Assembly (NCBI RefSeq): GCF_019510245.1
Contig: NZ_JAEKKT010000132.1
Coordinates: 19,483 to 83,482 of the forward strand
Length of the DNA: 64,000 bases
Direction of reading: 5' to 3'
DNA from: Streptomyces sp.
Lineage (GTDB): Bacteria; Actinomycetota; Actinomycetes; Streptomycetales; Streptomycetaceae
The notes under the pieces were generated by a model, which was not told the DNA's origin, made no database searches, and was given only the letters and a program-made list of their open reading frames with translations. Position 1 is the stretch's first letter. The number at the start of each line of letters is the position of its first letter. The position numbers were made by a program, and so were the translations under genes. Shown one piece after another: positions 32,233 through 36,841 of this stretch.

Positions 32233-35112
<2,880 letters not shown>

Positions 35113-35168
35113 GATCCTCAAAGCTCCATCGGTCGTCTCTGCCAGCGGCTGCGAACGTTCTAGAAACG

Positions 35169-35192
35169 AAAAAACCCCTCGCACAGGAGGGG
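35169..35192 (-). terminator. Intrinsic terminator in the leuS leader (attenuator)
   Basis: On the minus strand CCCCTC-CTGTGC-GAGGGG is followed by TTTTTT, a canonical intrinsic terminator with a real U-tract, unusual for this genome. It lies 48 bases after the leader peptide stop and 56 bases before the leuS ATG, so it would stop transcription before leuS unless countered. Confidence 0.85.
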
Positions 35193-35240
35193 ACGCCGCG
35201 CCGATGCCGACCAGCCGTTTCGTCCGGCGGTCGGGACTGA

Positions 35241-35279
35241 TCAGCGCGGCCCGCTAAGCAGAAGGCGTACGGCACGCAT
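35241..35279 (-). CDS. leuS leader peptide (attenuation), 12 codons
   Basis: The minus strand encodes [12 protein letters not shown] and a TGA stop, with three consecutive Leu codons CTT CTG CTT. CTT is rare in high-GC Streptomyces genes, so decoding would be sensitive to charged tRNA-Leu. Downstream are a long hairpin (CCGACCGCCG pairing with CGGCTGGTCGG) and then the U-tract terminator in front of leuS. TACCCT lies six bases before the ATG, so the leader ORF probably starts at the mRNA 5' end. Ribosome stalling at the Leu codons is expected to let transcription continue into leuS. The mechanism is inferred from position and codons; the alternative fold was not computed. It is too short for the ORF track. 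Confidence 0.85.
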
Positions 35280-35285
35280 GGCGTC

Positions 35286-35291
35286 AGGGTA
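35286..35291 (-). promoter_or_regulatory. Candidate -10 element of the leuS leader transcript
   Basis: TACCCT is six bases upstream of the leader peptide ATG, consistent with a leaderless leader ORF. No clear -35 at 17-18 bases. Confidence 0.5.
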
Positions 35292-35371
35292 CCGCAGGGC
35301 TTGAGCAAGCTGCGACGCGGTTGCGTATCAATGGTCGACACGTGCGTCTGAGGCGACCATCGGGACGAGAG

Positions 35372-35440
35372 TTGAACCAGGTTCAAGAATTACTTCGCGT
35401 AACGTCCGCTAAGGGACACCACAAGGGTTGCACCACCCTT
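35372..35440. promoter_or_regulatory. Cluster of three inverted repeats upstream of the redox operon
   Basis: Three palindromes sit within 70 bases: TTGAACC-A-GGTTCAA (35372-35386, perfect), TTAC-TTCGC-GTAA (35390-35402) and AAGGGT-TGCACC-ACCCTT (35423-35440, perfect). They lie in the 35113-35539 gene-free gap between the leuS leader and the membrane cytochrome gene, about 100-170 bases before the latter, where regulators of that operon would bind. No regulator can be named. Confidence 0.5.
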
Positions 35441-35539
35441 TGATAACAACGCAATAACTCAAACCTCGTACTGATCGGTATGGCGCCACTTAGGCTGCGG
35501 CACCGGGACCGCTTTCCCGAACTGCTCGGAGTTGCCCCC

Positions 35540-36841
35540 ATGAACCCTCGTCGTAGTAACAGCTCGCTTCCCAAGCCAGGCCGTTCGGCCTGGGGGGTGG
35601 CGTCCGCTGTCGTCCTGTTGCTCATACCCGTGGTTGTGCTGACCGGAGGCAGCCAGTTCCAATCGTTCCTGAACTTCGGCGCGGGCGTCCTCTCGCTCGT
35701 CTCGCTGAGCTGCTCGGTGATCTGGGGTCTGATCGCACAGGACCGCATCTTCCTCAACACCCGGCAGCGGATCGTCGGCCAGGCCGTGCACCGGACGACC
35801 GCGGTCGCCTCGATCGCGTTCCTGCTGGTGCACATCGTCACGAAGATCGCGCTGGATCACACCGTGGTGATCGCCGCGATCATTCCGTTCTCGCTCGGCA
35901 TCACCGGAAGCGCCGGCCTGATCGGACTCGGTTCGCTGGCCGGACTGCTGATGATCTTCGTGGGTGTCACCGGCGCCCTGCGCAGCAACTTCGCCGCCCC
36001 GGCCGTCGTCGCAGCCCGCTGGCGGGCCATGCACATGCTGGCCTACCCGGCCTGGTGCGCCGCGCTCATCCACGGCCTGTACGCGGGCCGCGCGGCGAAG
36101 CCGTTCTTCATGATCTCGTACGACCTGTGCCTGATCGGCGTGATGGCGGCGCTGGCACTGCGCGCGGCCCCGCGCCCGTTCAAGCGGAGGGTGGCCGACC
36201 GTCTCGTCTCCGTCCTGGGCAGTTCCGAGCGGCCGGAGCTGGATGATCTGGACGCCAGCCGCGCCCGGGTGAGCGAGTCCGGGCTGCCGGGCTACGACGT
36301 CCTCCGTGAGCGCGAGCCGAGGCCCTCGCGCGCGGACACGGCGACCTCGCAGTCGAACCCGCTGTTCCCGTCCGCGGCGGCCGCGGCCCCCGGACCCGAG
36401 CCGGCGTCCGGCTTCGCCGCCGCCTACCGGGCGACGTCCACGCCCGGCCAGGCCCAGTCGCCGTTCGCGGCCGGCCAGACCGCACGCATGGAACGCCTGG
36501 ACATGCAGGCCACGCAGGCCAACCCGCGCATGGACGGTCCGTCCAGCACCTCGGGCAGCTGGCCGATCCCGTCGCCGCCGCCGGTCGGTGAGGCGCCCCG
36601 GTCGGCGTACGACCCGATGCAGGACACCGGATACAACATCCCGGCCTATGGCAATCCGGGCGCCGACGGCATGGGCGGACGTGATGTGTACGACACGGGT
36701 GAGACGAATGCCCGGTACGGGACGTACAACTCGAATGACACGTACAACAGCGGTCCCGCCAACGAACCACCGCCCGGTGCGTCCTTCGACTCCCCGGGTT
36801 CGGGCGAACCTTGGAACACGCCTTCCGGAGGCTATAGGTGA
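35540..36841 (+). CDS. Di-heme ferric-reductase-like membrane protein with long disordered tail
   Basis: 433 residues from the ATG at 35540. Five to six membrane helices lie in the first 200 residues. Two helices carry the bis-histidine spacing of ferric reductase / NADPH oxidase-type b-heme proteins: H84-X13-H98 (in AVHRTTAVASIAFLLVHI) and H165-X12-H178 (in MHMLAYPAWCAALIHGLY), enough for two stacked hemes across the membrane. No FAD or NAD domain is present in this chain. The C-terminal 220 residues are low-complexity, rich in Pro, Gly, Ser and Tyr, probably cytoplasmic and disordered. It overlaps the downstream NuoF-like gene by 4 bases (GTGA), so the flavin input is likely supplied by that partner. 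Confidence 0.8.
   Translation: MNPRRSNSSLPKPGRSAWGVASAVVLLLIPVVVLTGGSQFQSFLNFGAGVLSLVSLSCSVIWGLIAQDRIFLNTRQRIVGQAVHRTTAVASIAFLLVHIVTKIALDHTVVIAAIIPFSLGITGSAGLIGLGSLAGLLMIFVGVTGALRSNFAAPAVVAARWRAMHMLAYPAWCAALIHGLYAGRAAKPFFMISYDLCLIGVMAALALRAAPRPFKRRVADRLVSVLGSSERPELDDLDASRARVSESGLPGYDVLREREPRPSRADTATSQSNPLFPSAAAAAPGPEPASGFAAAYRATSTPGQAQSPFAAGQTARMERLDMQATQANPRMDGPSSTSGSWPIPSPPPVGEAPRSAYDPMQDTGYNIPAYGNPGADGMGGRDVYDTGETNARYGTYNSNDTYNSGPANEPPPGASFDSPGSGEPWNTPSGGYR

Follow-up and report, generated by a model that had tools for sequence, protein, structure and literature searches.

Comparative sequence analysis of a probable leucine-responsive attenuator with abutting hairpins upstream of leuS in Streptomyces

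The window analysed here, a stretch of 64,000 nucleotides of Streptomyces DNA, encodes on its minus strand a leucyl-tRNA synthetase preceded by a short reading frame with three consecutive Leu codons, a long hairpin and an intrinsic terminator. This arrangement raises the question of whether transcription of leuS is controlled by the ribosome that translates the leader and, if so, through which RNA structures. The initial annotation, made from the sequence alone, had placed the -10 element, the leader, its regulatory codons, the terminator and leuS, and both its coordinates and its reading of these parts were found to be correct on the minus strand, including the canonical terminator composed of GAGGGG and six T at 35192-35169. 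With the long hairpin designated P1, the features of the locus are the following.

35286..35291, minus strand: -10 element TACCCT, read from the sequence, six bases 5' of the ATG
35241..35279, minus strand: leader ORF of 12 codons, ATG (at 35279) to TGA
35256..35264, minus strand: regulatory codons CTT CTG CTT, corresponding to Leu6-Leu8
35240..35250, minus strand: 5' arm of P1, GCCGCGCTGAT (RNA form GCCGCGCUGAU), with the stop codon inside it, starting 5 nt past the last Leu codon
35207..35234, minus strand: inner hairpin within the P1 loop, variable and missing from many relatives
35195..35205, minus strand: 3' arm of P1, ATCGGCGCGGC (RNA form AUCGGCGCGGC)
35175..35192, minus strand: terminator hairpin CCCCTC-CTGTGC-GAGGGG, 2 nt past P1
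35169..35174, minus strand: U-tract TTTTTT (six T), read from the sequence
32233..35112, minus strand: leuS, leucyl-tRNA synthetase of 959 aa, ATG at 35112, NCBIfam TIGR00396

The identity of leuS is given by its match to NCBIfam TIGR00396 (912 bits), and the leader ORF reads ATG CGT GCC GTA CGC CTT CTG CTT AGC GGG CCG CGC TGA. P1 is in the window a GC-rich hairpin ending two bases before the terminator, and the folding of the leader region beats that of 200 out of 200 shuffled sequences (z -2.4). A relaxed search of the host genome for the element returned no further copy. About 340 nt upstream of leuS, the stretch TTTGAGTTATTGCGTTGTTATCA (window 35440-35470, minus strand) recurs in many Streptomyces and may serve as the promoter for a divergently oriented gene.

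The leuS attenuator of Streptomyces is already known. Classical attenuators, consisting of an antiterminator and a terminator, were predicted before leuS in S. coelicolor and S. avermitilis by Seliverstov et al. 2005 (PMC1262725), and the 2021 reannotation of S. lividans TK24 describes leuL2, a leader peptide on a leaderless transcript with a mapped start that carries a hairpin and a U stretch before leuS (PMC8079986). Ribosome-dependent control of a synthetase gene, which had been singled out as notable on first reading of the locus, is supported by the present analysis but is not a novelty, since attenuators ahead of the synthetase genes trpS and leuS had been noted before and compared with pheST (PMC1262725 and PMC8079986). 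Leaders of such appearance can mislead, given the mutants of Craster 1999 as they are cited in PMC1262725: mutating the ilvB leader codons of S. coelicolor had no effect, and mutations in the leuA leader codons gave results inconsistent with classical attenuation.

The conservation of the leader was assessed first among close relatives and then across the class. Each of the 77 Streptomycetaceae sequences, among them the window, has the leader, as does Amycolatopsis jejuensis; it was absent under the same search from three distant loci of other groups (L078-L080). Codon 8 is CTT in each of these 78 sequences and codon 6 in 71 of them, and the C-terminal CCG CGC TGA is invariant. Class-wide, three successive Leu residues are encoded in 69 of 80 leuS elements, and CTT stands at the third Leu position in 71 of 80; yet CTT is a rare codon, representing 22 of the 1,673 Leu codons (1.3%) in the 33 window ORFs from which alone usage was counted. 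The Leu-codon leader peptide and its rare codon, both put forward in the initial annotation, were hence upheld by the very alignment of leuS leaders that it had suggested as a check, and a lack of conserved Leu codons among orthologs, which it had named as refuting its reading, was not observed. The annotation had further placed the 5' end of the mRNA at the leader ATG. Because the -10 element TACCCT, which occurs in 65 of the 78 relatives, lies only six bases from the ATG, the transcript is indeed expected to start at or beside that codon and hence to be leaderless, in line with the leaderless leuL2 transcript reported in the S. lividans study. A start codon in frame with the Leu codons and 5-8 nt past a TANNNT box is present in 79 of 82 elements versus 1 of 164 in shifted frames, the three exceptions being one element truncated at the end of its contig and two leaders of another gene, cimA, whose -10 boxes do not fit the TANNNT pattern. 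In all 80 leuS elements P1 starts 5 nt after the last regulatory codon; 58 of them use TGA at +12 as the stop codon and 11 use TAG at +3. With TAG, the peptide terminates after LLLT, LLLS or LLLA, so that Pro-Arg is lost from it while CCGCG stays unmoved, and this stretch is thus kept as RNA.

The distribution of the element was determined by surveying the LeuS loci of 118 class genomes, where similar leaders were found in many families, and by means of a covariance model built from 24 diverse sequences. The model matched 185 of 395 class genomes, spread over 78 of 137 genera, and detected no element in about half of the class (395 genomes). Among 60 elements fetched from selected covariance-model matches, LeuS lies directly downstream in 57, while one is truncated at the end of its contig and two precede cimA. 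The LeuS proteins come in two forms: over the matched stretch, one is close to the protein of the window, with about 61-88% identity, and the other is distant from it, with about 33-42%. One genome (G210) harbors two LeuS genes (L204 and L205), about 35% and 77% identical to the window LeuS in the matched stretch, each of which has its own attenuator copy. More species may be covered by the wider comparative study of Lopatovskaya et al. 2010 (Mol Biol 44:128-151).

Comparison of these sequences supports P1 as a helix maintained by compensatory changes. In a structure-blind MAFFT alignment, 7 of its 11 pairs are changed on both sides, a value reached by none of 500 shuffles, and pairing falls to 40-56% when partners are slid; in the alignment of 82 sequences, which was fitted to the covariance model, the number of pairs changed on both sides is 8 of 11. 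Examples of compensation are CCGUGC/GCACGG, CCACGU/ACGUGG and CCGCACCGG/CCGGUGCGG. At its base, the outermost three pairs of P1 are G-C with hardly any variation, and the loop varies widely between relatives in both length and sequence. Once the terminator stem is extended outwards, 0-1 nt separates it from P1 in 73 of 82 elements; the two hairpins overlap in 3 of 82. In 91% of elements, compared to 3.7% of shuffles, a helix of at least 8 pairs ends at most 4 nt from the terminator. The terminator loop CUGUGC (window 35186-35181) is, for its part, nearly invariant in Streptomyces, beyond what a terminator loop needs. A pairing partner for this loop was sought and none was supported: the six pairs that it could form in Streptomyces with GCGCGG of the P1 3' arm are broken, without compensation, by CUGAGC in several families. 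Two further candidates were rejected, namely pairing of the Leu codons CUCCUU with GAGGGG, which would be hidden under a stalled ribosome, and a small 5' hairpin spanning codons 2-5 (GCGU/ACGC), which is confined to Streptomyces.

The association of the scaffold with other genes bears on what its codons sense. The two covariance-model matches preceding the citramalate synthase gene cimA (TIGR00977) carry Ile codons, and among cimA leaders from the genus and from other class genomes Ile codons are present in 36 of 44 and P1 is flush with the terminator in 33 of 41. The cimA loci examined (L242-L295) present a leaderless Ile-codon ORF, a P1 helix and a flush terminator; the cimA leader of the window's own genome encodes VLSFAMIIGSRRAGPQ followed by a stop codon (L259, G000:C58, about 1220-1360), and others encode VPSQVIIIVRRAG and MLHHGIIIN, likewise terminated. 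No published description of a cimA attenuator was found in a literature search outside which most subscription journals lay. Beyond the class, weaker matches precede the acetolactate synthase gene ilvB and carry Val/Leu/Ile codons, five such loci within the phylum (L297, L298, L300, L301, L302) combining these codons with a TAG stop, and one weaker match precedes a distant LeuS and carries Leu codons. At another locus (L299, about 895-775, minus strand) the scaffold, with Leu-Leu-Ile-Thr-stop, is followed by a small ORF, and a prephenate dehydratase frame lies further downstream. The leader codons thus track the amino acid of the downstream gene, and at the level of sequence this match lends strong support to amino-acid-specific attenuation. 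The class-wide spread of the element (185 of 395 genomes), the covariation of P1 and the Ile codons before cimA are new here.

The leuS element is probably a leucine-responsive, ribosome-mediated transcription attenuator in which P1, as a helix flush with the terminator, acts as the switch; attenuation as the class of mechanism is very likely right. A short leader ORF carries cognate codons (Leu before leuS, Ile before cimA) and an intrinsic terminator stands between that ORF and the gene. For the direction of the response, the ribosome footprint and the steric blocking by P1, we infer the following sequence of events. Transcription would begin at the ATG of the leader ORF, and with scarce Leu-tRNA the ribosome would stall at Leu6-Leu8. 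At the first Leu stall its leading edge would stop beside P1, allowing P1 to fold, and P1, flush with the base of the terminator, would hinder closing of the bottom terminator pairs inside RNA polymerase, so that leuS is transcribed. With plentiful Leu-tRNA, the ribosome would reach the stop codon, which lies within the P1 5' arm or, in TAG-type relatives, at its edge, and would mask that arm, letting the terminator close. Using generally known ribosome footprint lengths, a ribosome at either the TGA or the TAG stop is predicted to cover the P1 5' arm, which would stay free when the first Leu codon occupies the A site. A terminator has to close its base far inside the channel through which RNA leaves the polymerase, and a helix joined directly to that base would either need to melt or hold it open.

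The same spacing could be read differently, with the stalled ribosome itself blocking the terminator and P1 being a mere spacer that folds away the intervening RNA. The fixed 5 nt between Leu codons and P1, together with the 0-1 nt between P1 and terminator, would set the edge of the ribosome beside the terminator base, as this explanation requires, but by itself it leaves the invariance of the outermost three P1 pairs unexplained, and we regard it as rather unlikely.

A classical trp-type attenuator, in which an antiterminator helix captures the 5' arm of the terminator by base pairing, is the form in which the element was published (PMC1262725), and the leader GGG could reach CCC over a bulge. 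The initial annotation had likewise proposed mutually exclusive terminator and antiterminator structures, with pairing of GGGCCGCGC to a segment near GCGCGGCGTCCCC. The GCGCGG of this segment does pair with CCGCGC of the leader, but the CCCC of the terminator arm stays outside that pairing and has no upstream partner in any of the structures predicted for the ribosome states. Mutual exclusion was not supported, given that the two hairpins are adjacent and non-overlapping in the window and in 79 of the 82 elements, that the predicted probability of the terminator is essentially unchanged between a stalled ribosome (0.969) and a ribosome at the stop codon (0.968), and that none of the 82 elements loses more than 0.2 of this probability between ribosome states. 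The codon beside P1 is GAG, GGG, TAG, CAG, TGG or CTG, and the terminator does not change to match; pairing of a GRG codon with the terminator arm was accordingly rejected for want of covariation. P1 shares bases with the terminator in only the 3 overlapping elements of 82, and a trp-type switch appears quite improbable. In equilibrium folding P1 and the terminator are able to form together, and base-pair competition between them was seen in none of the ribosome states; since the two are predicted to coexist, the antitermination step of the flush-helix switch depends on a steric argument. Modelled in this way, the leuS element would act like an attenuator outside the trp-type competing-hairpin form, and the flush-helix switch is put forward as a testable proposal.

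That the terminator is constitutive, insulating leuS from upstream transcription, and that the small peptide is conserved for an unrelated function, would agree with the near invariance of the peptide in Streptomyces. This is very improbable, however, as the apparent promoter lies at the leader ATG, so that the terminator would halt transcription of leuS itself, as the TAG forms shorten the peptide to LLLT and a stop while the RNA features stay, and as the regulatory codons turn to Ile before cimA. Direct sensing of uncharged tRNA by a T-box, a device controlling many synthetase genes in other phyla, or of another ligand by a riboswitch is hardly conceivable, as searching 34000-36500 against Rfam gave no match up to E=1 and the element is made up of P1 and terminator only, the P1 loop being highly variable.

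Beyond leuS, it is possible, if somewhat doubtful, that the flush-helix element represents an old, uncatalogued actinobacterial scaffold (leaderless regulatory codons, a 5-nt gap, P1 and a terminator flush with it) whose codons were exchanged to suit leuS (Leu), cimA (Ile) or ilvB (Val/Leu/Ile), and whose antitermination relies on an abutting helix preventing base closure and not on competing pairs. If so, it would constitute a natural minimal attenuator, the output of which is set by spacing. The spread across the class, the control of two LeuRS forms by one switch and the exchange of Leu for Ile codons at cimA suggest an under-annotated mode of sensing in actinomycetes, which may be a general one for branched-chain aminoacyl-tRNA and which yields no Rfam match here.

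Among known systems, the element falls within the Streptomyces leuL type, having a leaderless Leu-rich leader, a hairpin and a U-tract directly before leuS. It shares with the predicted attenuators of S. coelicolor and S. avermitilis (PMC1262725) the gene, the genus, the Leu-codon leader peptide, two hairpins and the U-tract, but the earlier prediction covered two species and a classical antiterminator, whereas the element described here is class-wide, supported by covariation and built of flush, non-overlapping hairpins. As far as the accessible part of PMC8079986 goes, leuL2 of S. lividans TK24 has a near-identical peptide, differing in a single residue (Gly/Glu), on a leaderless transcript with a hairpin and U stretch before leuS, to which comparative and structural analysis is added here. 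The Corynebacterium ilvB-II motif (PMC10272879), compared by its description, similarly places a small ORF over P1 ahead of a terminator, P2, and its reporter was expressed strongly in minimal medium and weakly in rich medium; it differs in having Val/Leu/Ile codons and preceding ilvB, and its proposed antiterminator pairs the 3' side of the terminator with the P1 loop, unlike the leuS element. The LEU element before leuA in Actinobacteria (PMC1262725) also involves a Leu-rich leader peptide in the same organisms, but it is a pseudoknot without an intrinsic terminator and is apparently regulated other than by classical attenuation. The trp and his attenuators of E. coli, finally, resemble the leuS element in their regulatory codons, their dependence on ribosome position and their intrinsic terminator, but their competing hairpins share segments, whereas the two hairpins of the leuS element share no bases.
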